Origin: Rhexocercosporidium sp. MPI-PUGE-AT-0058
Lineage: Eukaryota; Ascomycota; Leotiomycetes; Helotiales
Direction of reading: 5' to 3'
Length of the DNA stretch: 64,000 bases
Assembly (NCBI GenBank): GCA_020746875.1
Contig: JAGTJL010000015.1
Span: forward strand, 1,674,001-1,738,000
The notes under the pieces were generated by a model. The model saw nothing but the letters and a program-made list of their open reading frames with translations. It searched no databases and was not told where the DNA came from. Shown in pieces: positions 12,601 to 48,785 of this stretch. Within the stretch, counting starts at the first letter, position 1. Every line of letters starts with the position of its first letter. Both the position numbers and the translations under genes were made by a program.

Positions 12601-12664
12601 TTAATTAAAGCTCGAAATCTATATATGCTAAAAGTAGCTTATAAAGACAGATATAGCTCTTAAC

Positions 12665-13765: not shown

Positions 13766-13766
<1 letters not shown>

Positions 13767-13844
<78 letters not shown>
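13767..13844. repeat. (TAA)n microsatellite
   Basis: About 26 uninterrupted TAA/ATA triplets between the 3' LTR and the pol end of Copia element 2. Confidence 0.95.
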
Positions 13845-13848
<4 letters not shown>

Positions 13849-14220
13849 GTTATTATTAATTTAAGATCGATTCGGTATCGATCTAGTAATAATTCGAATG
13901 TTAACGAGTGATATAATATTAATTCCCGTTCCTGCCGGTGCCTTCCGAGCTGCCTACCGTATATATTACCTCTACTGCGCCCGCCTTATAACGACGATTC
14001 CGTTATATAATTGTCTCTTTTATAATAAAAAGGGAAAGAAATACGCTTATTACGTAAAATAGAAGACTTCTTACGTCCTTATAAGTTATAAAATTTTAAA
14101 ATTAGCTTTAGAAATAATTTATAAAAGCTTTGTATTTAATATATAACTTAGCTCCCTTAATATATAAGTAAGGAGTTCTTTGCCTTTTTCGTTGCCGTAA
14201 TAATAAAAGATAAGGTTATT

Positions 14221-14403
14221 ATGGTCGCCGCCGCGACCGAAATCGATTCCGTTTACTTAATTGCCTTAGCAAAAGCGTTAAAAATTAAAAAGGAGGCGTT
14301 AGTAACGTTATTAAAAGAGACTTATACTCTTTATAAAGAAGTGTTTAACTTATTAAATAACGTTAATATAAGTATTTTTAATTTTAACTTAATATTTAGT
14401 TAA
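14221..14403 (+). other. Antisense open frame inside Copia element 2
   Basis: A 60-codon frame on the plus strand, starting MVAAATEIDSVYLIALAKAL, is open within DNA where stops are otherwise dense. The same frame is open upstream to about 14171. It sits between the pol end (about 14890 on the minus strand) and the 3' LTR, the same relative place as the antisense frame of Copia element 1. No family recognised; it may be chance. Confidence 0.3.
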
Positions 14404-14889
14404 TATTAACGCTTAAAGGCCTTACTAAAGTTTTCTCGCCACGTAATAATAAAGGCGACGAAAAAGCGTCGTTAAAGAGATTTTAGTACGAAAGGAAATA
14501 AAGACGAGACAGAGGAAAAAAATAATAAGCCTACGGCCGAGTAGGAAACTACTCGCGTTAAACGCCGTCGTTTTCGCCGCTTATCGTTTTAAAGGCCTTA
14601 TTTTAAATTAACTTTATAATTAGTTTTTTATAATAATACTTTCTTTATACTTTTATATAAGAGTAGCCTTTTATAATAAAACCGGCAGCTAAGTCCTTAT
14701 TAGAGTGTCGTTATAAAACCGCTCGTTAGTGTTTTAAATTAAAGAATAAATAAAAAATTTAATTATTATTTTTTATTTTATAAATTAAAAGTAATATAAA
14801 ATATAATATAAAAAGAGCGTAAAAATATAAAAGAAATTAAAAGTTAAAAAAATTACTACTTTTTAAAACGATATTAAAACTAATTTAAA

Positions 14890-17470
14890 TTGCCTTCGGT
14901 TGGCCTTTAAATTTAACCTTTTATTTTAATAATAAGAGAATTTAAATTAATTAACTCTTAAAGAGCCTTATTTGAATTTACTTTAGTTATTATATTAATA
15001 AAATTGCGAGCTCTATTAATTTATTTTATTTCCGTTAACTTTTTGCGTTTGTACGACTATTGAATAATTATTATATTAATTATTAAACGTTTTTCCTTTA
15101 TTGTGCCGAGTTTAATAATATATTTATATAATAAAAGAGAGTTTATATAAATAACGGTAAAAAGGCGTAAAAGGCTAAGCTTATTAATTATTATAGCGAT
15201 AATAGTCGATATAAAAATAAGTATATTAATACTTATTATTATAACGTAAAGCTTAAAAGTAAAAATAATACGTATTACCTTTTTATACTTCGTTAAGCTA
15301 GTGTAAATAATATTATTATGAAATGTAAACTTTAAATTTCCTTTTATTTCGGTATTAATTAATATTAAAAACCTAATTTATAAGCTTAAGTCTTTATTAT
15401 TAATAAAAAAGCCGTTAATAAAGGCTTATACTTTAACGGACTGTAAATCAATGAGTATATACCGTAGGCCTCTCTTTTAGTTATTTATTTATTATTAAAG
15501 ACGTAGATTTAAGGCCTTAGTCTCCTTTATAAACGGATTTTAGTATTATGTTATAACGAAGAAATTAAACGTAGCCTTTAATTAATATATTATCGCGATA
15601 TATATTCCGCGAGCGCATTATTTTTAATAGGCCTCTTTATAATTTTTTTACTTAACGTTAACGACTTTTAGTTTTATTTTTTATTTCTTTTAAAATATAT
15701 AAAAATCGTTTCCCTTTATAATAATAATATAATTATTAAACGTGACCGATTCGAAGGGGTTAAGGACTTATATTAGCTTAGTTAAGAAACCAGCCTTTAT
15801 AATTTATTTTTATTTTATTTTTAAGAACTCGTTATCTCTTAAAATAAGAGTATTATCTGTTTATATTTTAATTAGTCTAAAATAAAGGTTTTATTATATA
15901 AATATTAATAAATAGAGGTTAAATGTAAAGGTTTCCATTTATAGGTTTTCTTAATAGTGTTTATAATATATATTAAATTAATAATTCTTTAATTTCGGAA
16001 TGCTATATAACGAGAGTATTATTATAAATACCGTTTTATAAGGAAACTCGTCCACAATCTTTATTAATAGCCACGTAAAAATCTTTTAAAGGAGTTTAAT
16101 ATTAATTTATATATATGCCTAAGTAATATTATAAATTATTAAGGTCGATTCGGTATTATTTCCCGTCCGTTTTAGTATTTTAATAAAAACTATTAAGTAA
16201 ATAAGGAGTCGTTAATTAATTTATTAAATTATTAATAATTATATTAAAATATCCTTCTTCTTTTTATTATTAAAATATATAATTATTAGCTTTAACTTTT
16301 TTTATAATATAAGAGTCTTCTTATTTTTAATTTCGTTTATTATATATGACTTAAATATTTAATAGCCTTTAAGTCGTAGGTCACTTTAATCGATTAATAT
16401 AAAGACACCTCTTTTTATAAGTGCCTTATATTTTGTCCTTCGAGATTATTAAAATAATAGACTTAACGTTTTAATTTTACTTTTAACTTATAGTTTAATA
16501 ACGAGCTCTCGATTTCTAATCTCTTTTTTTATAAAAAACGCTTTTATATTAAAATTATTATTAAATACTTAAATTCTTAAAATTAATTATATAAAAGGTA
16601 ATTAATTATAATTTAATAGGTTTCCGGTGTCGTCTTAAATAAGTTGTTAACTTATAATCCCGGCTTACGGGACTCCTTTAATAAATTTTCTTTTTAAGGT
16701 TTAACGTTCGGTGTATTTATTTAAATAAATATATAAAAGTTAATTTAAAGGTTTTAATTTTATTGCCGTTTATTTTAATTTTATACGTCTTTCTTTTTAT
16801 TTTTAAGAAATTATACGGGCCTTTTTACCCCTTTTTTTCCTTTTATATTATAACTTAATCTTTAATTCGGAGGTCATATATATAAGTTATTATAAGACTA
16901 TTACGCGTCCTTAACGCGTTATTTACTTATTAACTAGCTTAAATTTTATAAATCTCTTTTATAACTTTTTTAATAATAATGGCGCGTTATTTAATAAACA
17001 GATTTAATAAGTTTATTTTAATTAATTTAAGGTAAGCGCCGAAAATAAGTAATATAAAGATAAAGCCTTAAGGACCCGTTATATTATTAATTACTTTTAT
17101 AATTATTTATAATTTATTTTTATCGTTTAATTTCAGGTGTTCTTCCGTAACAATTTCATACGCTTAGCGAAGGAGGCAATGGAATCGTTTTACCTTTTTA
17201 ATAAAGTGATATGCCTCTATAAGCATAAGTTTTGGCGTTATTCTTATTAATTTTAAAGAGTTCTTAAACTTCTTTAAGTTAAAATTAGTCCCGTAGTTAT
17301 AGATTACGTAATTAAGAGGGCCGAGGTAAGTGTTTATTTATGCCGATTTAAGTGCGTTAAATATAAACCGAGCTGTAGCCGATCCGGTAGCCTTTCGGAG
17401 TAGTTTTACTTAATTAAACCTTATGCTTTCGTCGACTATATAAAGGACTTGTTTAATTTTTAATTAAACT
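14890..17470 (-). pseudogene. Copia-type integrase, RT and RNase H, RIP-inactivated
   Basis: From 17460 on the minus strand: QVLYIVDESIRFN, then INTYLGPLNYVIYNYGTNFN, then VERYH/AYEIVTEE-like text, an integrase core of a known fungal LTR-element group. RNase H near 15420-15230 reads FINNKDLSL, IRFLILINTE, IIYTSLTKYKKVIRIILTSKLY. The C-terminal tail near 14980-14900 reads NKAL.ELINLNSL. The RT between is too decayed for me to mark residues. Confidence 0.75.
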
Positions 17471-20102
17471 ATATTAACATAAACTATATAATTAAAGTTA
17501 ACGTCGTCCTTTAGCTTAAATCTGAACTTTTATAAAGCCTTTTTATGCCTTTAATAATGTTTATATAACTCTTTAACCTTTTTTATTATTTTAAAATTAA
17601 AATTATAATCGGCTTAATTTAATAAAAGCTTTAAACGCGCTATTATAAGGTGGCTAAACCGCTTGTGGAGTCGTTTAATCTCTGTCTTTATAAGGTAATA
17701 CGTATTAATTGTCCCCGTTAAAAAGTTAAGAAGTTAATTATAATAATTTAAAAAAAGCCACGCGTAACCTTTTTTTTAAATAATTAAGTGTCTCTTTTTG
17801 CCTTAAATTAACACGTTATAAAGGTTGTCGTATTATATATTAAGCTTATTTAATTATTATAAATAAATTAAAAACGATATGTCCGCGTCTACGATTATGA
17901 ATTCTATCTTATTAATAAGAGTATTAATTATTATAACTCTAAAGGAAGGTCTTAAACCGGCATCGAATGTAATTTAATTTGTTTTTGCTTAACTTATATT
18001 AAATTTAATATTTTAGATTTATTATAACGCCTATAGCTAATTAATGCCGCCGGTGTTCTTATTAAATACTTTTATATTAATTAATAAACCTTAAAAGAAT
18101 CTATTAGTTTATTATATTATATATGCCTCGGAAGTAATAGGTTTCATAATTATGGCCTTTAAAATATAAATTGCCTTTCGCTTCTTAAGTTATTAAAGCA
18201 CTTCTTATACGTCATACTTTTTCTTATTTATTATAAATATAGTTATATAAAATATTAACTCGTCGCTCTTTTCACTCACGTCTAAGTCGTCCGAATTAAT
18301 AATAAAATCGACTTCCGACAATAATTTTAGCTTATAATGACTATTATAGTCTTTAAAAGGGGTCCGAATCCTGTTTAAATCGAAACTATTCCCTTTTATA
18401 TATATTAAATATATTTTAAAAGAGAAATCGTTAGCTTTAAGGCCTTTTGCCTTCCGATTTATAAAGTATTTTACCTTAAAAGTAACTCTTTTTTTATTTA
18501 TATAGCGACTATTATAATAATTTAATTTCTTATAAATAATATAGCCGAAATAATTAGGTTTTAGTTTAAATTTATTTCTGCGTTTATTTTTAGACGAGTA
18601 TTTAATCTTTCGGTTTAAGTAATACGCGTTACTCTTTATAACGTGGTTTTTATGTCGATTTAAGCTTATTTTAGAGTGTCTATGGCGTTAATTTAAGTTA
18701 TGCGTTACCTTTACGTCAACCGCATTCTATAAGCTATCCATAAAAGTAAGAAAAGTTAAAGACACGTTAAAAAGTGCCATTTTAAAAAGAGAATTACTTA
18801 ATATTTCCTAAATTATCTTATTATATAATATTTAATTATTCCGTATATATTTATTTTTAAGACTTAATTATATATATTATAATTCCTTAGCGAAGTTCTC
18901 TAATTAAGTTAATACTGACTTACTGCGTTAACGATCGGCTTTTTAAAAATCCTTAAATTTAAAGTTAAATCATCGACTAAGAAACCGCTAAGCTCGCTCT
19001 TCCGTCTTAAAGTAATTACGCATAGCTTATATTAATTAATTAAACGTATATCTCTTATTTTATAAATAATCGGGGTTAAATTTAAAAGTAAAACATTATC
19101 TAGTCTTTATTAAAGTAAACCTTTTATAAGACTAAAGGTAGAAAATAACGACTCCTTCTTTACTTTTATAAGCGCCGGAGGAATTACGTTATATAAATCC
19201 TCCTCCGTATTAATTATTATAATATATTATAAAGTCGTAACGTCTTAAATGCTTTATAACGTACACGTCTTTTAACTTAAAGTTAATATTCTGACTTCTG
19301 GCGTTTATAAAGCTAGTTATATTAACTTAAAACTCTTAATTTGCCCGTCTTATGGCCGTAGCTCGTCTCGTATGTATTTTAGTATAAATTTAAGGTATAA
19401 TCGAGCTTAGTCCCGAAGTTAGTCTTACGGCCACTTATTATATAATGCCTAAAGTGTTACGTATAACGCTCTAACGGTCTTTGTCTTCTTTAACCGTTCG
19501 ACGTTAATTTTATAAAATTTAAAAGCGTTATAAAAATAAAGTCTCTTTAATTTATTAATTATTTTGAGTTAGTCGATTATTTATTCGCTAAAGAACTCGT
19601 AAAAGTCTTAAAAAAGGAATTCTCCTTTAATTCGTCTATTATAAAGGTCTTTATAAAAGTCTTTTAAGTACTTTATTAAGTCTACGGAAAATTCGTTTAT
19701 TAGCTAAGTCTTTAAGGCTTAAGGTATAATATTTATCTTATTCTCTTTTTTATTATTTACCGGAATTAGTTCTCTTACTTTTAATATAATTTCCGTAATA
19801 GTATTATTTCGGTATGGTTTTAATAAGTCTACAAAAATAAAGTCTTATATTAAAAGGGTTTATATTAACTTAATAGTTGTCGAAGAATAATTGTCGTGTT
19901 AAAGTTAATATTTAATAATATCGTCGAGACGCTCGACTCTTTATAACGTCTAAAAGTTAAGAAGATTCTCTCTTTTAATTAATTTAAATATAAAGGCGGA
20001 ACTAAGGCGTTAAGATTTTGACTTCCCGCGCTATCTGCGATTTTAACTCTTTAGTGCTATAACTTTGCCGTTTTATAATACTTTAAGTAGACCACTAATT
20101 AG

Positions 20103-20309
20103 TGTCGGTATAATTATACCGAAATATATAATAATAAAGTCACTTAAATAAATATCGATATTATTAAGTGATTTTAAAGGTATTATAAAGTGTATTCTTT
20201 TAAAATAAGAGTAAAGCTCCTTATATACCGGTCCGAAACTCTACCGAAACCCCACCGTTTCGGCCCTAAGCTATAATTCTATATTAATAAGAATCCCTAC
20301 GGACTAACA
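20103..20309 (-). repeat. 5' LTR of Copia element 2
   Basis: 207 bp partner of 13245-13451, followed by target copy AATAT at 20310-20314. Confidence 0.9.
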
Positions 20310-22560
20310 AATATATACTTAAAATGTCGCCGGCGCATTAAATAGTCTAAACGACATTATTTAATATTTATAATACTTATAATAAATGCAAAATATAATC
20401 TTTTATTTATTTCTTTCTTTAATTTTAATATAATAATATATATTTTATAAATTTAAATTAATAAAAATCTTCACCTCTTAAAGTCTATTTAACGTCTTAT
20501 TAATTAACGGTTAAGGGTATTAATCCTTAATTATAATTTCATTTAAAGCCTTATAATTAACATATAGTTAAAGGCTATTATTATTTTTTTTACAAATAAA
20601 ATAAAAACTTTAATTAAGCTCTTACTTTTCCATATTTATTTTTTAACTTTAAAATATTTAAAATAGCTTTAAAAAACCTTTAATTCCGTCTCGAAGAGGT
20701 TATAAATTAAAAAAATATAAGGGCTTCGCACTCAGTTTTAAGTCGATGACATATTAGCGACCTTATAATAAGGGTAATTCGTTCCCTCTCTCTTTTAAAA
20801 AGACGTCTTTAAATTTATAATATTATTATAAAATAATAAGTATATTGTCGGCGTTTAGTAAATACGTAATATTAAGACTAGGCATTATAGCGTACGCGGG
20901 CGACTCTTTTTTATTAATAACTTATATAAACTCTTTAAGTTTTATAATATTAAAGTTATAAATATTATTTAATTAATATAAATATTTTTATTATTTAGTT
21001 TTAAAATTAATTTAAAGGTTAATTTCTTTTAATTAAGGCTATCTTAAAATTAAGTTTACACTCGACATATTAATGATTTTTAGCCGGAATATATTTAACT
21101 TTATTTATTTAATTATATTTATAATTTCTACTTAAGCGAGAGCTATATTATAAATAATACTTTTATTATTAAAAAGGTCTGAAATGTCTTTAGTCCTTTG
21201 CCAGTGAATTATAAGTTATACTCCTTTATTATAAGCCTTAAGACAAAATTGTCTTTTACTTTATTATTAATTAAAGTTATTAATGTCTCCTACTCTTTAT
21301 TTAATAAAATCTTTAATTAAATTTCTATTCTTTTACTTATTAATCTTAATAAAGACGTAAAGGCTACCGTAAGTCAGGCGCTCTTTTGGCGTTTATTCTT
21401 AAACTCGTCGACATTAATCTTTAGGCATTTATTAATATAATAGCCGAGTTTATAATATAAGTAGCATTTAACTTTCGACTTTTAACTTTCTTTTTTACTT
21501 TTTTTAATTAAGATTTTATTTAAGTTGGCTTTATTAAATTACTTTAGCTAAGAATTATCTCGCCTTTCGCTAACTCTTCGTAAAAGCTTATAAAAAGGTT
21601 TATTTTTTTTTTTTTTTTATTTCTTTTTACCTTTTATTATTTCCTTTTATTAAATTATAAGTTTCTTAAAAAGCAATACCGGAAATGACTTCTTTATAAG
21701 TCTATAGTTTGTTAATTTATCCACTTTTAATAATCTTTTAATAAGCTTTAGGCCGAATCTTATTAAAGAAAATGTCTTATAGTTGACGCTTTATAAAAGG
21801 CTTAAAGTATTCCTTTAATTCTTTTAAATAATTAATTAATTCATAAATAAACTAGCTAACTCTTTATTAAGTTATTTTATAAACTTAAGAGTTAGCTACT
21901 TTTATTAAGACAAAGAATAACTAAAGATTCTTTAAAAACTCTTTATAATCTTCTTAAGTTATTATATTAAGTTTTTTTAAGGTTTACTTTTTAAATCTTT
22001 CTTAAGCATTTACTGATTTTTTATAAAATAATATTATTACTTATTTAATCTTAATTATATTAATCGGAAATCCTTTAAAATCGTAGTCAAAAACACGGTT
22101 ATAAACTTATAAATACTTTATAAGTTCTCGGTGACTCTTTCCTTTATATTTTAAGGGAATTATATGTTTGCCCTTTTTTTGGCGTAAAGCCCGAGGTTCG
22201 TCAACTATTATTAAAGGGCTCTTTATATTACCTCCGTTATTTATAAGAGTTTTTAATTTAATAAGTTAAAAGAGCTAAGCTTTCGTTACTACTTTAAGAA
22301 GGTATTACGTAAAATCGTCGCTATACATCCGATAATACTTAGCAATAAAGCTGTCGAGGATATTATTCCGCTTCTTAAGAGCCTAAAGTTATTCTTATAT
22401 TACGGCAATATTATTTACTAGCGTATTTCTAGCGATTCCTTAGTGTCTTAAGGTATTTAATCGTTATCTTTGTCGACTTAAGGCTACCGCTAATAAACCT
22501 TTAATTTAAACTATTATATAATAATTAAATTAATAAAAAAAATAAAAATAAAATGTAATA
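20310..22560 (-). pseudogene. Gypsy gag, protease region and first half of RT
   Basis: RT starts near 20650 on the minus strand (KNKYGKVRA, then FYL.KK, TLRGEDFY) and ends at the insertion point with a decayed APATFQ block at about 20335. A gag zinc knuckle lies near 21490-21450, where Cys and His codons of a C-x2-C-x4-H-x4-C pattern have partly become Tyr. Gag continues to about 22200. The 5' LTR could not be delimited. Confidence 0.75.
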
Positions 22561-23766
22561 ATTACTAGCACACTAAGGTGACTATAACATAATAAAATAG
22601 CTAGAAAAGCGCTATAGACTCGCTAATAATATTTAAATTTATATAAAAGCTAATTATTAAAAAAGAAAGATTACCTCTCCCCCCTCACTATCCTTATAAG
22701 GGCAGTGATTACGCAATCAGCGCTAAGAGCACAGACCATTACAACAAGCCTTACTTCTTTTAATATTTTGAATAGTCCGAGTTTCTTGAAGTCCAGTTTC
22801 ACACTTAGTTCTTTATTAATTAGTCGTTTAATTGTATATGTATCTTCTTATTGTACGCCGAAGTGAAATTCGTCGTAGAAGGCACAGTCTTTTTAATCAA
22901 TAAAATATGGCCGAAGAAGTAGTTAAATGTTAATTTATACGCGTTAAGCCTTTACTTGTGCAGGTGTCAACTCCTTCTCTTCTTATCTCTTAAATGTCCT
23001 AATTCCTTTGTCTTTACGGCATTATACTCGTATCGTTTGAGCTTTAATATCGCGTATACCGTCGCTATAAAGCGTTTGAGGAAGAGGTTCGCCGGTGGCT
23101 GCGAGAAAGATGTTTTGCCATGGGCTTATTTCGTAACCTCAGAGGTATGCTTTCGTCGGTTAAATAATCGAAGATTGCTTGCGTTTGCTATCGAATTATA
23201 TATTGTGAAGAAGCGCGAGGATTAGGCTCTTGTAGTTCCAAACTGTGATTTAATATACGCACTTCCTTCGACTTTAAGATATCGGTTTGCGAGCGCGGTG
23301 GTACGCCTATAAACTCCTAAATCTCTGGCGTAAGAATCTTAATCTTCTTCTGAAAAGCAATTTCTTTGCAAAAGAAGACACCCGTGCGTTAAGGAGTTGT
23401 ATGATAGCCTGTCGAGACAGAAAGAGCTTGCGATGAAGTTACGTATTTGACGCGTGGAGAGCGTCGTGGAGAACTGATTATAACACGTGTAGTTTGGCAA
23501 GATGTAGAGATATACTTTGCTTTACGCTTCCGAGAGTTACGCTGTGTTGAAGGCATCGTGGTGGTGTTATTTGTTAATTATTTACAGTACAAAGTGCATT
23601 TATTTGGTGTTGGGCGCACGTGCCAAAAATCCGCAGTTTCCCGCTCACACGAAGAGGGCGGAATGGTGGAGTGGGACGTTACAAAAATGTTCGTTTAAAG
23701 AGCGCCTTGTGCTTTTCATCTGCAGCGCATGTTGAGCGTATCTACCTTTAACTTAATGTAGATGTG
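22561..23766. other. Transition from RIP-mutated DNA into the gene island
   Basis: Composition shifts from AT-rich at 22.6 kb to near normal by 23.4 kb. Short open frames (for example 22956-23225 and 23447-23698) lack a convincing start or domain. The stretch upstream of 23767 would hold the promoter of the 2EXR gene; I see no clear element. Confidence 0.5.
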
Positions 23767-26203: not shown

Positions 26204-26943
26204 ATGCATTTCTCATCAACCCTCACCATCACTACCATCTTCCTCTCCATTCTCCCCTCCATCCTTGGAGCACCTCTCCCAACACCCCAAGGCTTCACAA
26301 TCGGTAAGCCATGCTTCGGATCAGCCGCCACAGGCTGCACTTTGAAGCAAGGCCACAAGAGAGAGATTGAAGAACTCATCACACGCGCACCCGAGCCGAT
26401 CGCCGAACCTCAGGGATTCACCATCGGAAAGCCCTGCTTCGGCTCGGCCGCTACCGGTTGCACCCTCAAGCAAGGCCACAAACGAGAGGAAGAGATTGTT
26501 GCTCGCACCCCTGAACCCATCGCAGAACCCGCACCAGAACCCCAAGGCTTCACCATCGGCACACCATGCTTTGGATCCGCTAAAACGGGATGCACTTTGA
26601 AGAAAGGCCACAAGCGCGAGGAAGAAATCGTCGCTCGTGAGCCTGAGCCAGTCGCTGAGCCAGAGATTGAACTCGAGACCCGCGAGCCAGCCCCTATTGC
26701 TGAACCTCAAGGTTTCACTATTGGGAAACCATGCTTTGGCTCGGCTGCTACAGGATGCACACTGAAGCAAGGCCACAAGCGCGAGGAGAAATTGTTGCTC
26801 GCGCACCTGAACCTATTGCCGAACCCCAAGGCTTCACCATCGGCAAGCCTTGCTTCGGCTCGGTCGCTACTGGATGCACCTTGAAGCAGGGACACAAGCG
26901 CGAGGCTGTTGATGCCACTCTTGCACCAGTTCTTGAAGGCTAG
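26204..26943 (+). CDS. Secreted Kex2-type repeat-peptide precursor (frameshift before last repeat)
   Basis: The protein begins MHFSSTLTITTIFLSILPSI, a clear signal peptide with likely cleavage after Gly22. Five copies of a 25-residue unit follow. Each starts QGFTIG, has two Cys eight residues apart, and ends GHKR, the dibasic site of Kex2-like proteases. Just before every unit is a run of X-Pro/X-Ala dipeptides (AP-LP-TP before unit 1; AP-EP-IA-EP or variants later), as trimmed by Ste13-like dipeptidyl peptidase in yeast alpha-factor. Linkers read E-E-E-I-V-A-R. Unit 3 differs at three positions and unit 5 at one. Between units 4 and 5 one base is missing near 26787-26800, so unit 5 is in another frame that ends at TAG 26941-26943; without correction the first frame stops at 26884. 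This matches known Kex2-processed repeat proteins or pheromone precursors; the exact class is unknown. No UstYa/DUF3328-like gene is seen nearby. Confidence 0.8.
26288..26901 (+). repeat. Five coding repeats with KR ends
   Basis: Units of 75 nt at 26288-26362, 26411-26485, 26543-26617, 26708-26782 and 26827-26901. Start-to-start spacing is 123, 132, 165 and 119 nt; only the last is not a multiple of three, which pins the frameshift to the fourth linker. Third-position differences between units are many while residues are conserved, suggesting purifying selection on the peptide. Confidence 0.9.
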
Positions 26944-28638: not shown

Positions 28639-29016
28639 ATGTTGATTGATTTGGTGCGAGAAATGCAGAGACAATGCACGAGTGTAACTTTGGACGGTGT
28701 GGCGTGCAGGAACTGCTCCGAGGTTGTGAGACATTTGAGGTCCTTCACCGTAGCATTGGATCTCGTGAACCACTTTTGGATTTACGAAAAAATTCACAAC
28801 TCCACGAAACTTAACTTTATAAGAACGAAATTAAAGAAATTGGTTTCTTCAACGTCCAGTTTATTAGAAGCTCTTGCGGTTATTTTGAAAATGAAGAGAA
28901 TTCAAAATTATCCGGTCTCGGCTCATTTATTACTTGATAACTGGCACGCGGTACAAAGTCGCGATAAAACTCAATGTATTATATTACGGTCAGCTTATAA
29001 GCGCTGCGATATATAA
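28639..29016 (+). CDS. Doubtful hypothetical ORF
   Basis: A 125-codon frame with two CxxxxC-like pairs early (TSVTLDGVACRNC) and Leu-rich helices after. No domain recognised, and composition drifts AT-rich toward the RIP block. It could be a decayed gene end or chance. Confidence 0.2.
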   Translation: MLIDLVREMQRQCTSVTLDGVACRNCSEVVRHLRSFTVALDLVNHFWIYEKIHNSTKLNFIRTKLKKLVSSTSSLLEALAVILKMKRIQNYPVSAHLLLDNWHAVQSRDKTQCIILRSAYKRCDI

Positions 29017-29432
29017 GGATTACATTTGTATTAAGTAACGTGACACGCGTGAGGTACTAATACTTTGAACAGGCCGCTAATATATAGTGATGAAAGGGCA
29101 GGGTAAGCTCTGGATTAGTATAGACGAGTTAAGGTTTGAATTAATAGCTTTAATTTGTAGATATTTGACAAAATAATAGGATATGGATAAAGTAGTCTGA
29201 ATTTTTAAGGTTATATTGAAATATAGTATATATAAATTAATTATATACAAGCGATAGTAACTTATTAAAATTAAATCGACCGCCCTACTTTCTTCGATTT
29301 TAAGTTACTTCTTAACGGAGCTTATAACTTATTAAAAAGTATAACTTTACTTCACGTATATGCGTAAGTTACGAAATAGTATTGTTAAAAGAATTAAACG
29401 CTAATAAATTAAATTATAATTTAATTATTTAC
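29017..29432. other. Island edge with AT-rich drift
   Basis: Composition falls toward that of the adjacent dead Gypsy element, consistent with RIP spreading beyond the repeat. The target copy TTTAC (29428-29432) marks the element's edge. No gene seen. Confidence 0.5.
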
Positions 29433-29800
29433 TATTACGGCTGGCTAGAGGTTAATATAGTGCAAAGATAGCTTTATATTTAGACTTAAAGCTACGCTCA
29501 GAATCAAAAAGAAAAGACAAAGAGAAAAGGAGAGCTCTTTATAAGAGGGAGCTTTAATATAAATACACAAAGGGTCCCCCTAGCCTTTCCCGATTAGGCC
29601 TAGCGCTATAATTGCCATACCAAGGCAATGCTACGAGCGATGCCGAGCTCGCTCGGTTAAAATATAAGGCTTATAAAATCGTAACACGAGTAAAGCAGCC
29701 TCCACATAACTAAAGCAGCCTTAATTAAAGTAGCCTCCACGTGACTAAAGCAGCCTTAATAGCTATATCGATAATATAAGGCGCATCGAGGGTCGTAATA
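29433..29800 (-). repeat. 3' LTR of outer Gypsy element
   Basis: 368 bp. It matches 48378-48780 except for one missing 35 bp internal repeat unit (AAAGCAGCCT..-type) and many transitions. Confidence 0.9.
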
Positions 29801-29829
29801 TTATTCCCCCTTCTTAAAGAACTGCGTCC

Positions 29830-31061
29830 GCGTAATTACAGTCATAAAACTATCGTCTTCTAGCTCTTTATAATTATTAACTCTATTATTAAAAGCCTTT
29901 AATTACTTAAGTAAAGCTCTTAAAGGCCTTGTGACCCTCTTATTGTCTTTATACTTTATATAAAAAGCCTTAACTAAGTGAGGGGCCATTATAACATTTG
30001 AGTATAAATACTATTCTAGGTCTTCGTCGGCGCCTAGTCATTTAATGCGATATTAAAGCTTTTAATTTATTAACTTTAAGCTTAAAATAACTTTAATTTC
30101 CTATTCTTTTTAATTAAATAAGAGCTGTATTAGTGCTAGCGTTTGTGTAGCTTAGCCTGGCAAAGGGTTGTCGACGTACTTCCGTAGTAAATAAGCATAA
30201 AATACAAGGTATATAATTTAACTCCTTAGTAATTTTACCTTTTAACTTTCCCCTTTTTATAAGAGTACCTTAACTAGTCCGTACTACTTGTCTAATAGCT
30301 TTTTTAAGGGTCGGTCGACATTTTAATTTTAAGTGTCGACTAACACTAAGTCGCCAACGTCCCAGTCGACGGCACGGCGACTATAATTGGCTAGCCGTTT
30401 CATTTTCTCTTATTAAGCCTTTAATAATAATTATATAACTTTTATAACTTCTTTTATTTATAATATTACTTATAAAGCCTCCTCGCAATTAAGTTTCTTT
30501 ATTACTATAGCTAAAGGCTTTAAGTTAATTAAGTCTTAAGAAGTCCTTAGTTTAACGTCGTTAAATAATTTAAAAGGGAATAAATTGCCTAAGGACTTAT
30601 ATAATAATAATAGTTAAGTAATGTCTATAATTAATAAGAAGTCGCTTTAATTATCTTAATAATAATAGTAAAAGAGGCGGAGCCGCTACTTAATATATTA
30701 ATTCGTTATCTCTGTTTAGCCGTCGACGTTCGGGTTATACGCCGTCGTAAGCTTTACTTTAATTCCGAGGATATAATAATACTCCTTTTAAAAAGAGAAA
30801 ATAAACTGAAGTCTTCGGTCCGAGATAATAAAGTCCGGCATATTAAAGTGTCGGGTTTAATAAATAAAGAAAAGGATTACTATGCCTTTCGCGGTAATTA
30901 TATTATTATAAAGTATTAAAACCGGCTTCTTAAATAAGCGGTCGACAATAATTATAGCGAAGTTATAATTATACTTGTTTAATAATAGCTTTATAAAGTT
31001 TATCGTAAAATATTAATACGGCCGAGTAAAGATTAATAAAAAGTATAAAAAACTAAGAGTT
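29830..31061 (-). pseudogene. Gypsy integrase C-terminal half and chromodomain
   Basis: Minus-strand reading from 30790: LTTAYNPNVDG, then SDFLLIIDITY, then KMKRLANYSRRAVDWDVGDL near 30400 (the GPY/F-side region), DRPLKKLLDKY, and IIYLVFYAYLLRKYV near 30230. A chromodomain-like piece follows (YRIKWLG-like, then ADEDLE.YLYSN) near 30060-30000 and a basic tail. Stops are frequent. Chromodomains mark the chromovirus group, where they direct integration to heterochromatin. Confidence 0.8.
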
Positions 31062-31065
31062 TTAT

Positions 31066-31346
31066 TATAGAGGGGAAAACACTAAACATATAATAAGAGG
31101 GTAGTAAAGCAAGTGCCAGAGGGTAAACGTAGGAAATGCCTATTTAACGAATACTAAAGATATTATATATTTAAGGAGTATAATTTATTAAAAGAGAGGA
31201 AAGGTATAATTTAAATAAGAAGGAAAAGTTATAATAATAAGAATCGTTATTATTTTTAAAAGATATTACCTTAAAAGCTATTTTAAATATAGCAAAATAT
31301 AACTTAATTACGTAATAAATAGGCCTTTAAGGTTAACCCTATTATA
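31066..31346 (-). repeat. 3' LTR of nested Gypsy element
   Basis: 281 bp, aligned with 43358-43643 over its whole length; differences are nearly all transitions. This copy is more heavily mutated at its end than the other. Confidence 0.88.
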
Positions 31347-34300
31347 TGCGTCCCCTCCTTAAAAAACTTATACTCGACCTTAAGTAAAGAAATAAAAATT
31401 AATATTATAGCTTTAAAACTTTAAATACTTAAAAGAAAATATATTTAAGTAAGAATAAGTAAATATTAAGTGACTTATACCTTACCTTTAAAAGCAAATA
31501 ATTATCTCGCTTAATACCTTTAAATATTATCTTTTACTTTATTATTCTTTTTCTTTTCTTTTCTTTTTAATAACTTTATTATTCTTTTTTATAATATTTT
31601 TAAAAAGGTTTTACGCGCCTCTTTACTCTTATATTAGTCTTTTTATACCTTTTAATACTTATTATATTATTTTTGCCGCCTAAACTTACCTTTTTAAATA
31701 TTATATTTAAATAAACTTTAATTTTAATAAAGTTAAAGTAATTCTTTTAAAATAAATCGGCGTATAATTAGTATTTTAAATAAGTTCTCGACTTCTTTTT
31801 TTACGGCGTAAAGACTGACTTTCTTTATAAAATAGAAATTAATCCTTATAACGCGTCGAATTCGTCGATATTTCCTTATACTTTAAGTTAACGTATCTTT
31901 AACGACTTCGCTTCTTCTTTATATTCTTATTTTAACGAATCTTTTATAAACTTTCTTAACCTCTTAATTATTATTAAAAATAAAAGGAAATATATTAAAA
32001 GCATATTAAAAAAGTAAAAATATATAAATATATAAAATTAAAAGTAAATAATAATCGGAAGACAGTCTTCTTACTTTTAAAGTTTAAAGTATAATAAAAA
32101 AATAAAAAGAAGTTAATTAAAATATCTTTTTTTTTAACTTAATTAAGTCTTTTCTTTACTTTTATCTTCTTCTTTTTACTTTTACTTCTTTAATAAGTCG
32201 ATATTAAATAATAATAAAATTAATTTTAAGTGATTCCCCTTCTTTTTATCTTAACAGTTATTATATCGAATAAAAGCGCCGATAATATTTTAATAACTTT
32301 TTATTATATTTTCTTATTATTCTTTAATAAATAAGTAAATTACTATAAGCAGCTAAGATTTATTATATTTAAAAGAAAAAGAAAAAAGATATTATGCTTT
32401 ATATATTAACTTCGAGCTACTTAGTCTTCTTTATAATCTCTCTCTTTCCTTAGCAGTAAGTTATAAAGTAAAAGCTTCTTAAAAATAACTTTTAAAGCTT
32501 TAATAAGTTATAAGCTATCTTAAACCGCTTTCGTCGTCGCTTTCCTTCGACTTACTTCTTATTATTAATTAATTAAAAAAAGTAAAAGACTAAAGATAAG
32601 TTCCTTCTTATTTAATATCGCTAATTTTTAAATCTTAATATTTTTTTAATATAATTTAAAAACTTAAAGTAAAGGCGTAGCTTTAATTGCCTTATTAAAA
32701 TAAGAAGTGTCTTTAACCTTATTACTTATTTTAAGCCTTTATTAATTACATCGTAAATAACTTTTAAACTAATAATGTCGAGCTTTCCGGAAGTCTTTTC
32801 TCATTAAAATAACCCCTTTTTATTTAAAAGTAAAATTCCTTTTTAAAAAACCTTATATTAATATAATTTTATAATAACTTTAAAAGTAATAAAAACATTC
32901 CTTAAACACCTTTATAAGCCGGTATAAGCTAAGTCGAATTTTAAATCTAAAGAAAAAATAAATATATTTTAAGGGCGAAAGTAATAGTATTCTTTTTTAA
33001 TTAATTAATATTCTTAATTTAAAGGCCCGAGGATTAATATCTGGCTAAGAAAAGCTCCTGACTTAAAGTTTAATTAATTTACTTAATAAGAGACAGCCTC
33101 ATAAGGATAAAGTCAGAGGAACACTTATAAATGGCTTAAGTATTTATAATAAGGCACTATTTACTTACTTAAGTCCTTCATAAAGTTATTATTATAATAA
33201 AACTATAATAATAGTATTTGAATTTCAATAAGTAAGATTTTAAAACAATTAAAGAAAAGGCGTATAATTCAAATTAATTAAAATCTCCCTTTACACGGAG
33301 TAATTCTGCCTATTTTATTGTTTTAAAACTAATTAATTAAAACTCCGAGGAAATAAAGTCGTTGTTATTTTAATACTTTAATATATTGCTTAAAATAGCT
33401 CAAAGTAGGCTTAGCCTGTTATAGTACTCAATCCGCTGTCTTATACTTTTGCTCTTAATTAAGTTACTACTATTAACACTTAAATAACGTAAAGGCCTAA
33501 ACTTAATAACCGTCGATCGAGAGAACTCATAAAGTCTAATAATAACCTTTACGTTAAACTTTAGACTTATAATAACTCGACCGCTAATTTCCGAGAATTA
33601 ATAATTTAATTAAAAATAAAACACTTATAATATAAAAGGTTAAAAGCGTAAAAGAAATATAAAAAAGCTAAAGATTTATAACTTATTAGCCGTACTTACT
33701 TTGCCCGTCTTTAATTTAACCGTCACAATCTCGAAATATTAAGCTCCGTTTTTAAATACGTTATATTAAAGTTATTAATATTTAAATAAACCTTTTATAT
33801 TATTAATAATAAATTTAATAATTTTTATTATTAATATAAGGCAGTTATAATAACTTATTTTCTTTATAATAACTTGTGGCCTATCGCGCGCTTTATTATT
33901 TATTTAAATATATAAATTAGTTTTATTTATTTAGTTTTATAAACTCTTTTAAATCTTAAGTCGTTTAATTACGTATAACCTCTTAGTCGTTATATATTTT
34001 CTTTTTAAATTAATAGCTTATTTATTATAGCCTTAAGAGTTATTTTAATTAAAGTAAATTTTTTTATTATAAAATAGTTAAATAATATTAAAAAAGAATT
34101 TTTAATTTTCGATTACCTTTAAGGACTTATTATATAAGCCTGCTTTAGTAATATGTTTTAGGGGGTTATTGTCTTTAGCGCCTGGCCTATTAATATATTA
34201 AGATTATTAACGCTTTAAAACGGCTTATTAAAAGAATCTTATTTAACTTATTATTTAACTTATTATTTAATTCTTTTTAAGATTTAATAAAAAGTAAGTA

Positions 34301-35400
34301 TTTAATTAAATTCTATTTTTTTATAACGTAAGCTATAATCGACTTAATTTAATTAAATTATTTTATAAGGCTAAAACTCTTTTTAAGTTTCTTAAAGGCT
34401 TTTTTAGTTTTATAAAGTATTAATAATTATTGTATTTATAAGCTTTCGAGCTTATACGTCTAGCGTCAATAATATTAAATTATTTAAAGAGCAGCTATTA
34501 TAAACACATTATTTAATTCGACTAAGATATTAATATTATTATTACGGAACGACTTATAAATGTAATCGGAAGGTATTTATAAGCGTAAATAGTATTTAAA
34601 GTATTAAGGGGATTTTTCGTTATTTAAGGGAAAGCCCTTAATATTTTAATATATACCTTTATTATTATGTTTTAATTTTTGTCCCCTTTATAAAATATAA
34701 AAGGTACGTCCTCGCCACAGTTTAGCGTTCGATAACGTTAAATAATAAGTTATAAGAATTATAATAAAAAGTAATTAATAATATTAATTATAGCGATTAA
34801 GTTATTTACTAAAAGAATAAGTAACGACTCAATATTGACTTTATTCCGCGTGAGTTAGCTTTTTAAGTGCTTTAATAATAATTTTATTATTTTATATAAC
34901 TTATTTTATAAGCTCTTTAAAATCTTTAAAGCCTTATAAATTTCGCTTTTTAAAACTAGGTTTAAACTAATCTTTATTATTATTATATTGAGTTATTATT
35001 AAAAGCTTGTCGTTTTTATAATAAATAAAGCGCTTTTATTTATAAAATAACTTAAAGTAATTAATTATAAAAGTATTATAAAAGAGTATATTATTATTTT
35101 TTAGCTTTTTTAACTTATAATAACTCTTTTTAAAAAAGGCCTTATAAATTTTATAAAGTTTTAATTATTAAAAATCAAGCTTTTTACTCTTTAATATATT
35201 AATTTTCTAAATAAAGTCGTACTTAAGAATTAAGTCTTTAACTTATAATAGCTTATTTCGAATATCCCTTTTTACGTCGAAAGCTTCTTTTTCTTTTTAT
35301 TTATAACGTATCTTTTAAAGCTTAGCTTCTTTTATATTATTATTCCGCATTTAATATTAAAGAATTTAAATATAAATTAAATCGTTAATACTTTTAATAT
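31347..35400. other. Unassigned tail of nested Gypsy element
   Basis: About 4 kb of strongly AT-rich DNA between the integrase end and the 3' LTR. I could read no retroelement domain on either strand and found no further LTR pair. It may include a further decayed insertion or an extra ORF. Confidence 0.4.
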
Positions 35401-38400
35401 CTTTTAAAAAAAGGCTTCTTTAAGTAAGATAACGTATTTCGATAAAAAGAATTAATTCTTTATCGTAAACTATATAAAAAGGGGTATAGTCTATAAGTTT
35501 ATAAACTATAATACGGTTAATAAACAGAACTGCTAATAAATTACTTATTTAGTCTTTTCTTATTTTAAATAAAGTATTTTTAACAAAGCTATGTCTTCGC
35601 TCGATTATATTATTAGCTTTTACATTATAAGCCGATATTTAAATTCATTGAATTTCTACTTTATTTAATAAATGAACGACTTCGCCTATATTCTCTATGC
35701 CTTTATTAATTATTAGCTTTTAAAATAGCTTATGTTAATAAATAATATTTTATTAAATGAAATTAATAATGCTTTTAGCTTCTTTTAAAGTAAGCGCCTT
35801 AGCTTCGACTCAACCGCTTATATTATCTTAAGCGATAACGAAATACTTTTTTTCATTTTATATTAATATAAAAGTAATATTTAGCGCTTATTTTTTTATA
35901 AGTCCGTTTAAAGTAATTAAAATTATAAATTCTTTTTGTCGCTTAATATTATATAATATACACTTATTGTATATTTTAACGAATTCCGCGGAGTCTTTAA
36001 AACAACTCTTTTAAAAATAGCGCTAGAAAATGCGGTAATATATACTTTCCTTTCTTTTATAGCCGGAGTTATTATAATAGTTTTATAAAATATATACCTT
36101 ATCTTTATCGGTGTCGATAACGAGTTTAATAAGTATGCCTTTTAATAAAAGTCTTTAAATACGTTAATTATAAACTTTATATAATAATACTTCTTTTTTA
36201 AATATATAAAAGGCTTTTAAGTTTATATTTTTCGAAGTCTTAAGTATAATTAAATAAATAATTATCTTTTAATAATATTTTTTATAATATTTTAAAGATA
36301 TTAATAAGTTTACTTTGCTTTCTTAGTTTATACTTAAGTCGCTATTAAGTATTATTTAATCGTTCGACTTATTTTATAATTTTTAGACTTTTCGCTTTAT
36401 ATTAATGAGAATATCGCGTCTTTAAGTTAATTTAAGGTTATTGAAAGTCTCTAGCTCTTTTATTAAGTCTTTTATACTTTTCGCTTCTACCGAGCAAATT
36501 TTAATTACATTAAGCTTAGCTAAGATTTAATCTTTATTATTATTATTTTCGGTATCTTCCTTAGTATTCTTAAGGTATTTAAGTCTCTTTAAGAAAGCAT
36601 TTACTATTATATACGTAATACTTTTAATATAGCGCACTTCGAAGTCGAAAAGCCTAATTTAAGCGAGCTAGTAAGTAAATATTATATTAAAGTAATCGTA
36701 AGCAGCTCCTTTAAGTTAAGTAATAAGAGTATTTACGTTAGTTTTTATAATAAAATAGACTTTTATAAGCTAGATTTTGAACTTCTTAAGGATTAAAAGT
36801 ATACCTTTATATTCTCTTTTTATAGCGTCGTAGTCTTATTTTACTTTTATTTAAAAGCCGCTTTTATACCTCGCTAGTCTAAGCTTATTATTTTTCGGGT
36901 CACGTTAATTAAGGAAATTACTTTATCCGACTTTATTAAAGTCTATAAAAACGACGATTTTGTTAACGCCCTTAAAGTAATTAATCTTATAAAATATTAA
37001 AAAGAAGCACAAGGTATTTTAAAAGGTTTTTATTACTTAATTATAAGTTGCGGGGTTTTATATAAATTTAATTCCTTTTTTAATAAAGTCGTATAACGGC
37101 TCGGCTAATAAATAAAAGTTTTTAATTTAAATGCGAAAATAAGTAATTAAATTTAAAAATCTTTTAACTTTTATAACGTTTTTAGATTCTTTTTATTTTT
37201 ATATTTTAATTGAATGTATAACTAAAGGTTTTCTTTTTTATAAATTATATATATAGCCGACGACGTTTATATTATTACGACAGAACTGCGATTTAAGGCC
37301 TATAGTAACTCTAGCGCGCTTAAGGCGTTTTAGCGTCTTATTAAAGTTGAAAAGGTATTTAAGGACGAATTAACGAATTCTAAGCCGTGCTTCCTTCCGA
37401 TTATAATTTATATATAATCTTTTTACGTTAACGTCGTTTAAAAACGACATTATAATAAAAAGCATAATATTTTTTAGTATTTTATTAATTATTTTTATAA
37501 ATTAAGTAATAGAGTTTATAACTCCTTAAAGTAGCGTCGTATTTCGGACTAATTTAATATTAAATATAAAAAAAGCTATTATATTTCGGCTATTTTAATA
37601 TAATACTTATTAATTATAACTTAAGTATAAGTCTATTAAGCTCGCGATATGGCATTTTATAAATTCCTTTAAAAATTCGTTAATAAAAAGAAGTAAGTTA
37701 ACGTTTCTTAAAGTAATTGCGTTAAATATAATTATTAAATTAATTAAGTAATACTTTTTTAATTCCTTTTTTTTAATTAAAAACTAAGCGTTGCGATATA
37801 ACCCCTTAAAGAGTTCGAGAACCCTACGGCTAAGTCTGTCTTTTATTATCTTTTTAACTTCGGGAGCTAACGCTTTAAGAAATGGAAAGTATAATATTTA
37901 TTAAGCTTTATAGTTTATTATTTTAATAATTATAAGTAATAAAATATTCTTATAGAATTTCTTATATTTAATTTAATTAAATATAATAATAATTTCTTAA
38001 TTTAATATTATTTCGTTAAAGAAGGCTTTCTTTTTTAATTATAATATATCTTTAATATTTAAAGTAATAAGTCGCTTTTCCGTAATCTTAAATCTATAAA
38101 GAAAGCCGGTAAAATAAAAGAGTAAGATATTTTAATATTTTTTAACTTATTCTTAAGAAAAGTCCCTTTTTTTAAAGGCTTTATATTAGTTTTTACGGCC
38201 GTTAAGTACATTTCTTATTTTATTTATTCAATTTATAAGCTTAATCTTTTTATTTTTTATTTTATATATAATATAAACCCGCGAAACTTATTTATGTTTT
38301 TTAAATAAGAATATTATTAATAAAGTATTATAATTTATAATAAATTAAAAAGTAAGTTTAATTTTCTTAATTAATACGGTATTAAACACGCGTTCTTTAT

Positions 38401-41400
38401 CAAAAGGAGCTTTAATAAAGTCTTTATAAAAAGGGTAATCGTAAAGGTCCGTCTTTAAAATTATGAATTCTCGCTTTATATATTTAATAGAAATATATAA
38501 GACGTCTTTAAAAGAAGAATTACTTTTATTATTAGAAGTTTTTTTATCCTTTTTATAAAAAAGCTTATTCTCGAGCTTAAAGGAAGTATTCTTTAAAAAG
38601 TATTCGACGGTATTAACTATAAAGCTTTAGTTATAGTTAGTTATTCGTTTCTTAAGTCAGTTTCGGACTCCAAGTAGTTTAATTCCGGATTTAATAATAT
38701 TTTATTAGTTTAGCTTTTAAACTTTATAGTTTTAATACTTTTAGCGTACTTTATAAATTTAATTACTTTAATAATAATAACTAGTCGTGTAATCTTATTT
38801 TATAAGTTAGCGTAAACTAGACCGCCTTTTATATTAAATAAGTATTTAAATAAAACGCGTATAATTTAAAAGAATAGAAATTTAAAAATAATTTTAATAC
38901 TTAAGATATTTATAATATAAAACTTAATAAAAATAATATAATCTTTTATTATAACCGAGACGTTGTTTATATATTTTAGAAATCGCGATTTTACGTTTAT
39001 AATACTTTTTAAGGCTATAAAATCACTTTTTATAATAAAGACTTTTAATTAAATAATAATATTATAAAATATATAATTGACTTTTACGCCGAAATTAAGA
39101 GTAGCTTAAATATTACTAAGTCTTGTCCTCTTAAGTATAGTAATCACACACTTCGGTGTTAAAGAGTATTACTTATAACTTAGTCCTTAAAGTATATTAA
39201 TTAAATAAACTTTAGCGGTTAATAATAAGTCGACTTTAAGTTTTTCTTTTAAAACTATTACTTTTTAAAACGTTATTAAAATAATAATTAAGATTATAAG
39301 CATTAAGTTAAAGAAAAGAATTAGGCTTAATAATAATTAAAAAGTTAATTATTAAATTAATATTTTTTATATTAAAAAGACTTAATACTTTTATTTCTTT
39401 TATTAAATTTAAAGCTTATACGTAAGTTTAGCTTAAGATACGATAAAATAAGTAATAACTCGTTATTCTTATTTAAAGAAAATACGTTTAAGCTATCGCA
39501 AAGCTTATAATCCTCTTAATATAGAATCCGAAGTATTAGCCCGAAGTAATAAAAGGCGTTAAATATAATATTATTCCCTTTTTAATTACAGTCCTAAAGA
39601 GCCTTTATATACTTTATAATCTTAATAATAATAATAGTAATTTAGTCTTAAATCTCTTAATTAATAGTCTTCGGTCGACTTGTCCTTAATAAGTCGATTA
39701 AAATAAAGATTTCTCTTAAGGTTAAGTTTTTAAAGAGCTCTTTTTAAATAAAAAACTTATTTAGCGTATTATTTAATATATAATTATTCCGCGATAGCGC
39801 CTAGTATACGCGAGGTCGGCCTGAAGTCGTCTTAACGGTAATAAGTAAGTTACTTTTAGCGCGTTTTTAAATAATCTTTATAAAAGGTAGTTTAATAGTA
39901 GTCGGTCCTCTTTAACTTACGGCTAAAATAACTTCTTTTAATTTCTTAAAAATAATAATATTATTATTATTTCTTATAATAATCCGAGTGGGTTTTACCT
40001 TAAGTACTTTAATTAAAAGGTTTACGTTTATAAGCTCTTAAAATCTAACGGCATTTTTAACTTCTTTATAAACCTTTAGTCTTCCGTAATTATTTTAAGC
40101 TTTAAGACGTTTTTAAAGTAAGGTTCCGGTTATATATAATTTAACTCTTATTATTACTCTAAAAGCAGCGGCATTTTATTATTTTGTTTTTATAAGTGCT
40201 ATTTTAAAACTATTATTTATTCCTTTTAAATTAAAAATAATAAGTACGTTTTAAACGTTAGTTAGTCTTATTATATTAAAGAGTCGGATAGCGAGGATAT
40301 TTAAATAGTCTTAAGGCTTTTAATTTATTTTTAATATTAGTTTTTTTAAGGCTGACTTTAATATAATATTTTATTAAGTTAAAAGGGCTTTTTGAGCGTC
40401 TTAAAGCTTGTTTTAAATTACTTTTTTTTTTGCTTTAAGTTTAAGTCTTTTTTTATATTAATTATTTATAAAATAAAGACTTTTCTCTTTAGTTTGTCTT
40501 AAGGAAATTAAACCGCTTGAGCTTTTATTCCTTCCTTTTAAGGGCTTATATAAATGTAATTATTTTTATTTTTATAAATAATTCTTAAATTAAGCCACTT
40601 TTTGAATTTATAATATTAATTTTAATATTTATGAAATCCTTAAGGTCTAGCACCTGAAATCGACTTATTAAAGTAAAAAAGGCATTCAGTACTTGTATCG
40701 TCTTTTATATTAAAACGTTAATTATATTTAAAGCTTGCTTTAGAATCTTAATAAAATACCTTAGCTTTTTTAAGGTATGCGATTAACTCGTAAGTAAATA
40801 AAGCCTTAATTTTAGCTATTAACTTTAGATTTTTTCTTTTCTTTATAATAACGTATAAAATACGTAAGTTGTTTAATTCTTCTGTAATTATATTAATATC
40901 CTGTTTTATAATCTAATTAACATCGCGAGTTAGCCTTTTAATAATAAAAATAACTTTTTTTTAAATATGCCTTTTTTAATTTAATTTAAAATAAAGCACC
41001 GAACTCTTCTTAAAGACGTCGTTAATCTCTTAAGTTAAAGAATTATTCTTATACTTTATAAGCTTAAGGCGAGCTATAAGGTTAAGCCCTTCGAACTGTG
41101 CTATTAAAGAGGGAGTTTTATTATTACTTAACTCGAGTCGAAGACGGTCGGCCTAAGTAATTCGTATAAATAATACTTTCTTTTTAATTAACGTATTAAT
41201 TTCCCGCTCGACTTAAAGTAAGCCTTTTATTTTAATATATATTTTATTAAAAGATTATATATTTTTCGTATTAAAAGTATTATTATTCTTTATAAAAGTT
41301 CCGGCCTTTCGCCTTAAGTACTTAGGCAAAGCCGTTAAAAATTTTATAATTATTTATTGTTTTATAATAATTTTCTTTTATATATAAACTCGATTAACTT

Positions 41401-43643: not shown

Positions 43644-43647
43644 TTAT

Positions 43648-48780: not shown

Positions 48781-48785
48781 TTTAC

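Follow-up and report, generated by a model that had tools for sequence, protein, structure and literature searches.

The locus described here raises the question of what is released by a short gene built of near-identical Cys-pair repeats, and of whether the product is a mating pheromone, a cyclised RiPP, a structural or host-directed peptide, or a signal of another kind. A role beyond mating is known for few fungal secreted peptides. The functions of Kex2-processed repeat proteins (KEPs) are largely unknown (PMC9769878). The window, by which the whole 64-kb stretch of analysed DNA is meant, was G000:C7:1674001-1738000 in a genome of 62.7 Mb on 60 contigs. As read from its sequence, the gene is probably the precursor of a conserved secreted signalling peptide that is not a mating factor and that would be matured by the alpha-factor machinery.

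Repeat units, reading frames and surroundings

Five 25-residue units with the consensus QGFTIGxPCFGSxxTGCTLKxGHKR were found within 26288-26901, each with two Cys spaced eight apart and Lys-Arg at its end (table 1), as the sequence-only reading had described them. The single gene that it drew across 26204..26943 stands as an envelope and not as one frame, since the ORF of units 1-4 stops at 26884 and unit 5 is read in another ORF. Met 26204 is the likely start of the precursor ORF, because MH and a similar hydrophobic stretch open five of the 12 relatives described below (P0002, P0003, P0004, P0005 and P0012); a second in-frame ATG is located upstream, at 26042. A hydrophobic N-terminus runs from this Met (Kyte-Doolittle mean >1.5 in 11-residue windows starting at residues 6-15) and is presumed to be the signal peptide named in the sequence-only reading. 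The N-terminal start is alike across five aligned precursors, and the assumed cut ILG/AP leaves AP-LP-TP in register ahead of unit 1. In the linkers before units 2, 3 and 4, an acidic stretch after Lys-Arg is followed by LITR, IVAR or LETR, then by X-Pro/X-Ala pairs only and then by QGFTIG. A structure model of the whole precursor, built on a five-sequence alignment, had no confident fold (mean pLDDT 37.7), which would suit a string of peptides but would also be given by a shallow alignment and is counted as weak evidence.

Table 1. Positions of the repeat units, their flanking sites and the bordering blocks within the window.
Feature	Positions	Strand	Basis or remark
Left AT-rich block	1..23000		GC 0.259; TpA/ApT 1.32, (CpA+TpG)/(ApC+GpT) 0.42; RIP-like
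Precursor ORF, units 1-4	26204..26884	+	226 aa plus stop
Presumed signal peptide, residues 1-22 (...ILG/AP)	26204..26269	+	hydropathy run, helix 5-21 of a low-confidence model, dipeptide register; cut site assumed
Dipeptide run AP-LP-TP, before unit 1	26270..26287	+	register walk
Unit 1, QGFTIGKPCFGSAATGCTLKQGHKR	26288..26362	+	unit alignment
Site LITR, then run AP-EP-IA-EP, before unit 2	26375..26410	+	register walk
Unit 2, same protein as unit 1	26411..26485	+	unit alignment
Site IVAR, then run TP-EP-IA-EP-AP-EP, before unit 3	26495..26542	+	register walk
Unit 3, QGFTIGTPCFGSAKTGCTLKKGHKR	26543..26617	+	unit alignment
Site LETR, then run EP-AP-IA-EP, before unit 4	26672..26707	+	register walk
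Unit 4, same protein as units 1 and 2	26708..26782	+	unit alignment
Separate ORF in another frame, unit 5 and C-terminal tail	26731..26943	+	ORF list
Site IVAR, then run AP-EP-IA-EP, before unit 5, in the unit-5 frame	26791..26826	+	register walk
Unit 5, QGFTIGKPCFGSVATGCTLKQGHKR, frame unlike units 1-4	26827..26901	+	unit alignment
Linker EEEIVARTPEPIAEPAPEPQGF			candidate Kex2 substrate (predicted)
Right AT-rich block	29000..50000		GC 0.254; TpA/ApT 1.47, (CpA+TpG)/(ApC+GpT) 0.30; RIP-like

Differences between the units are mostly silent, so that purifying selection on the peptide is strong. Pooled over the 10 pairs of window units, pS was 0.694 and pN 0.049, and as controls the two remaining reading phases of this alignment gave pN/pS of 4.27 and 4.39. 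Variable columns fell at codon positions 1, 2 and 3 in the numbers 4, 3 and 20 (25 codons), and silent differences were near saturation. Between units 2 and 4, which share one protein sequence, there are 15 silent differences; between units 4 and 5 there are 13 and a single replacement, a pattern suggesting that unit 5 either lost its frame only recently or is in frame in the living fungus.

The frame break before unit 5, one of the features that the sequence-only reading had overlooked along with the Ile/Leu/Val-x-x-Arg sites, the Ste13-type runs and the family, lies downstream of units 1-4. No splice-donor-like GTRNGY was found in 26701-26960, so an intron is not an obvious cause. The break may be a sequencing error or a real mutation, the two being indistinguishable here, and with unit 5 out of frame the gene is possibly damaged at its 3' end in the assembly. 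Read as a loss of maintenance, the same out-of-frame unit and missing intron signal would make the gene a decaying pseudogene. We regard this as quite unlikely: units 1-4 with their sites and linkers are intact upstream of the break, four copies are still encoded and predicted to be released, and the sequence of unit 5 has been kept, which points to a recent break or an assembly error.

The position of the gene in an island between dead repeat blocks, also claimed earlier, was upheld. GC is 0.457 in 23001-29000 (TpA/ApT 0.84, (CpA+TpG)/(ApC+GpT) 1.22) against the much lower values of the two flanks (table 1), whose dinucleotide ratios are called RIP-like (RIP, repeat-induced point mutation) by the usual thresholds. 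Samples of 1 kb from the left block and 1.5 kb from the right block were each repeated at no fewer than 39 other places in the genome, 40 candidates having been scored per search. Around the right block, the stretches 29433-29802 and 48378-48782 contain a 300-nt direct repeat, whose copies at 29433 and 48378 are 85% alike and separated by 18.9 kb. Each stretch also has an adjoining segment of 111 nt (91% alike between 29692 and 48672) and tandem repeats of 35 nt (TAAAGCAGCCT...); the two stretches may be the decayed termini of a single old mobile element. The left block holds a perfect TAA repeat of 26 copies at 13767-13844.

Of the island neighbours covered by domain searches, one ORF has a 2EXR domain, one is Glu/Pro-rich and one has no convincing domain; no obvious tailoring enzyme is among them. 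The ORF that adjoins the precursor (27323-28111, minus strand) encodes 262 residues of repetitive Glu/Pro/Val-rich sequence with no Pfam match above cut-off and no obvious signal peptide by eye. Outside the island, an ORF at 56413-57015 (plus strand) starts like a cytochrome P450 N-terminus by eye, with DUF2786 as its only Pfam match above cut-off, and is perhaps a broken or intron-split gene.

Relatives of the precursor

With the ORF as query, a search of 5.77 billion proteins gave five proteins, the window's own among them. A profile search gave 13 proteins at E <=1, namely 12 relatives and the window's own, and when an aligned set of one- and two-unit forms served as the query, nine proteins came back, none of them new. 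Since these searches reach only proteins in a length range that share short words, the family is probably larger than 12 relatives. The search for homologues that had been proposed earlier thus returned 12 proteins, all of which carry the core Gx2C[FP]G[SG]x2T[GS]C with the Cys pair kept in 12/12. In 14 representative units chosen for comparison, the core columns G, C, G, T and C were invariant and F, S and G nearly so; the first Gly of the core is usually preceded by Ile or Val.

Three relatives are from named species, Rhynchosporium agropyri RAG0_15114 and Oculimacula yallundae VTL71DRAFT_10423 and VTL71DRAFT_916, both genera belonging to the Ploettnerulaceae (Helotiales), and the remaining nine of the 12 are environmental proteins. 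The three named proteins have the core of the window gene but fewer units, and the form QGFTIGTPCFGSxKTGCTLKxGHKR is found in both units of VTL71DRAFT_10423 and in the third unit of RAG0_15114. As listed, the 13 precursors contain 5, 4, 3, 3, 3, 2 (six times), 1 and 1 units, counts in which some precursors are possibly partial because they lie on short contigs or have no Met start. The R. agropyri precursor (P0005, RAG0_15114) combines two GIVGSGCFGGTGTGC units with one QGFTIGTPCFGSKKTGC unit (QGFTIG type), and these unit types are split over separate O. yallundae proteins (P0012 and P0006). In P0008, the tail after the second unit repeats the N-side grammar with no Cys (IIAR-EA-EP-IVG and IVTR-EA-DP-IVG), as if units had lost their ring.

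The earlier description of the peptide as undescribed is consistent with the database and literature searches. The precursor had no Pfam match at E up to 1, PDB sequences gave nothing better than E = 1.2, and a bacterial and archaeal collection gave 44 stretches matching the pattern, with 0 confirmed relatives. In the paper collection searched, none of six core variants was found, nor any of the gene tags RAG0_15114, VTL71DRAFT_10423 and VTL71DRAFT_916. Within the genome, the protein query returned the gene itself and unit 5 and nothing else. A degenerate ring pattern matched seven places, five being the window units; the other two were judged to be chance matches and were rejected as second copies, C12:2655242 because no listed ORF of >=40 residues reads the motif there and C5:898570 because it lies inside a 596-residue frame that resembles a ferric reductase by eye.

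Predicted maturation

Maturation through the alpha-factor route is, judged on the sequence, quite probable. The signal peptide would be cleaved near ILG/AP, and a kexin (Kex2-type) would cut after the Lys-Arg at the unit ends and after LITR, IVAR and LETR before units 2, 3 and 4. A dipeptidyl aminopeptidase of the Ste13/DPAP type would then remove the X-Pro/X-Ala pairs and halt at Gln-Gly, a Kex1-type carboxypeptidase would trim off Lys-Arg, and a disulfide between the two Cys would close a nine-residue ring. Domain matches observed in the genome were one P_proprotein (kexin-type) match and DPPIV_N matches at two places. The product is probably a 23-residue disulfide-ringed peptide, QGFTIGKPCFGSAATGCTLKQGH, with predicted monoisotopic masses of 2306.094 (disulfide) and 2289.067 with N-terminal pyroglutamate; masses of 2336.141 and 2319.11 are predicted correspondingly for the unit-3 variant. 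N-terminal pyroglutamate is known from other KEP peptides, and some of those of Coprinopsis cinerea start with it (PMC9769878). The sequence-only reading, in which a Kex2-type precursor gives several Cys-pair peptides, agrees with both the sequence and the 12 relatives, with cleavage, secretion and the disulfide as its predicted steps.

The N-end of the peptide was predicted by a register walk over 33 units (32 in the 13 precursors, to which the window's unit 5 was added). For 29 units the walk set out from the Arg nearest upstream of the core, and for four from the assumed signal-peptide cut. It fell 8, 6 or 5 residues ahead of the first Cys in 31/33 units (14, 12 and 5, respectively). The exceptions were unit 3 of P0003 (12 residues) and unit 1 of P0010 (56 residues), the latter misread, because the listed protein begins upstream of the likely signal peptide. 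The N-end was uniform across units in seven of the 11 multi-unit precursors, the others being P0003, P0005, P0008 and P0010. Two or more in-register X-Pro/X-Ala dipeptides precede 26 of the 33 units, one precedes a single unit and six have none; Arg abuts the core with no dipeptides in P0003 unit 1, P0005 units 1 and 2, P0012 and P0013. Such runs, which are described as the Ste13 signature (PMC6339444), stand before all four in-frame window units and before unit 5 (XA/XP in each case).

In the 28 of 33 units with linkers long enough for shuffling, 98 in-register dipeptides were observed against 23.4 expected, and 0/20000 shuffles reached 98, figures to be read with the register analysis having been devised after the linkers had been seen and with the relatives sharing a common history and so not being independent. 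When shuffling was done within single proteins (P0005, P0008, P0010, P0012 and P0013 left out), the observed number was reached in 0, 4, 4, 0, 20, 2, 31 and 18 of 20000 shuffles for the eight of 13 precursors covered.

An aliphatic-x-x-Arg site is weaker than Lys-Arg as a Kex2 site, and longer peptides would be released if it were left uncut. Two-thirds of the units (22/33) come after an Ile/Leu/Val-x-x-Arg site, and among the 27 Arg sites other than Lys-Arg, 22 have Ile, Leu or Val in the P4 position, the five exceptions being APGR, RETR, HPSR, MIAR and FQAR. By sequence, the Ile/Leu/Val-x-x-Arg sites fit the extended Kex2 motif, which has Arg at P1, Leu or another aliphatic residue at P4 and a variable P2 that includes Thr (PMC8528282).

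At the C-end, P0011 stops at VITEE, which is its own unit 1 minus KR, and P0010 and P0003 end at GH, the residue preceding KR in the window units; these ends are database predictions that contig ends could have cut. The sequence-only reading had named, as what would refute it, homologues in close relatives that lack the dibasic sites and the Cys pair, and for the dibasic sites this was borne out in part: in some distant relatives (P0004, P0010, unit 1 of P0009 and unit 1 of P0005) Lys-Arg does not directly follow the unit. The C-side cut thus varies between family members; the Cys pair is retained in all 12.

KEPs are defined by at least three repeats of at least eight residues between dibasic sites that cover at least 15% of the protein (PMC6339444, PMC7329392), and the window ORF falls within the repeat definition with four 25-residue units ending in KR in 226 residues, behind a presumed signal peptide. 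A KEP with a Ste13 signature is, as a kind, already known. What is new, on the predicted sites, is the layout of aliphatic-x-x-Arg followed by a dipeptide run, which together with the one- and two-unit members sets the family apart. Compared with KEPs, one or two units are all that eight of the 13 precursors have as listed (some possibly partial), and a dibasic site is missing on the N-side. Such members would be lost to pipelines built on three repeats with KR, RR, KK or RK. The core is not among the conserved KEP motifs named in the main text of PMC6339444, and the supplementary tables of the surveys may list it. Agaricomycete KEPs are alike in giving non-pheromone peptides, which were seen by mass spectrometry (PMC9769878), whereas the window peptide is predicted; their cores are unrelated and they come from basidiomycetes. 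Ste13 motifs are discussed there for KEPs of Pleurotus and Lentinula, and the kep knockouts of C. cinerea had no phenotype (PMC9769878).

Candidate roles of the peptide

The architecture of the precursor is that of alpha-factor precursors (Ppg1/MF-alpha type), with a signal peptide, tandem units, a Kex2 site, X-Pro/X-Ala runs and two Cys per unit, and the genome contains a receptor gene of the Ste2 family. The window gene could on these grounds encode another alpha-type mating pheromone, additional or alternative, that Ste2 recognises, a reading that we consider very unlikely. A precursor of alpha-pheromone type with seven RCGHPGQPC units already lies on another contig (C12:571243-571782), laid out as KR, then DA-IP-EP-AP-EA, then RCGHPGQPC, which makes the window gene unlikely to be an alpha-pheromone gene and bears out the doubt expressed earlier that it is one of the usual kind. 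Of 14 species from the Ploettnerulaceae, Drepanopezizaceae and Mollisiaceae, seven have RCGHPGQPCG (PMC10569646), and the repeat suggests that the genome, too, is from this group. Mature alpha-pheromone repeats have 9-14 residues, with GQ or PG in the vast majority (PMC10569646), whereas the window unit has 23 residues before KR, a CFGSxxTGC ring and neither GQ nor PG, and its N-side cut is predicted at aliphatic-x-x-Arg and not at Lys-Arg. A Sclerotiniaceae-type pheromone pattern allowing three mismatches gave nine matches in the genome, seven of them in the pheromone-type gene, against 2 and 0 in the control. A pattern starting with Trp-Cys was discarded; it gave four scattered single matches, and the control 2 and 5. 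The pheromone-type precursor provides a built-in control for work on processing.

A dikaritin-type RiPP, the core of which would be cyclised by UstYa-type oxidases, shares the Kex2-processed repeated core with the precursors of ustiloxin and phomopsin type, and a signal peptide followed by repeats with Kex2 sites is the form of ustiloxin-type precursors (PMC7329392). At least 57 UstYa match pieces are present in the genome. None is in the 64-kb window, as the sequence-only reading had noted of UstYa-like partners, and about 437 kb separate the gene from the end of the nearest piece listed for the contig; DUF3328 (UstYa) genes are found near 22% of KEP genes at a mean distance of 3.09 genes (PMC7329392). 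Tyr is absent from all five window units, whereas ustiloxins and phomopsins have an EDYXI core (PMC6339444). The dikaritin reading is mostly refuted and we give it scarcely any credence. With a pheromone-type gene on another contig and no UstYa match in the window, the precursor is probably neither an alpha-pheromone nor an ordinary dikaritin precursor. Several UstYa-domain match pieces lie within about 10 kb at G000:C34:2592341-2602710 and may mark a RiPP gene cluster on another contig.

Repellents are hydrophobic peptides and are not known to have a conserved Cys pair. The window peptide has such a pair, and a bulk structural role would not lead one to expect the single-unit relatives P0012 and P0013; against an antimicrobial or structural role also speak the two Lys per peptide (three in unit 3) and the small Gly/Ser/Thr/Ala ring. 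We therefore think it rather unlikely that the product is an antimicrobial or a repellent-like surface peptide and not a signal, even though the predicted peptide is mildly basic and surface-active Kex2-processed repeat peptides exist, such as Rep1 of Ustilago maydis (PMC8528282).

The main rival is a host-directed or apoplastic peptide, matured in the same way and aimed at a plant. Islands amid RIP-affected repeats are a common location of effector genes, and the window gene lies in such an island. Both named genera include plant pathogens (see also PMC5118889), and Kex2-matured repeat effectors are a recognised class among bioactive-peptide effectors (PMC8528282). Strong purifying selection on the core between units, with no sign of diversification, tells against this rival, as do the environmental relatives (9/12), to which no lifestyle is attached. 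A host-directed peptide is, on balance, possible but doubtful.

For a signalling role, towards the fungus itself or towards a host, the fixed core and the listed single-unit relatives are the points in favour: the core has been kept despite near-saturated silent sites and is common to precursors of one to five units, so the peptide is taken to bind one fixed target. This is the weakest step of the explanation, and we would place it a little below even. A likeness of the ring ends to the vertebrate natriuretic-peptide ring was judged superficial and was dropped.

Tentatively, and with more doubt than confidence, the peptide may be read as a second, non-sexual pheromone-like hormone of helotialean fungi, produced by the alpha-factor enzymes through two types of Kex2 site and with an orphan fungal or a conserved plant receptor, that would be widespread but missed by surveys requiring three repeats with dibasic flanks. 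The dibasic site would set the C-end of such a hormone, and aliphatic-x-x-Arg would start the Ste13 run that sets its N-end. For the family, the product and its masses are predicted exactly, and the conserved core allows selection to be measured. Further members could be sought by a rule of three elements in order: an aliphatic-x-x-Arg site, a run of X-Pro/X-Ala pairs and the core. Should this rule prove true, surveys restricted to dibasic sites and three repeats will have missed signalling peptides encoded in one or two copies.
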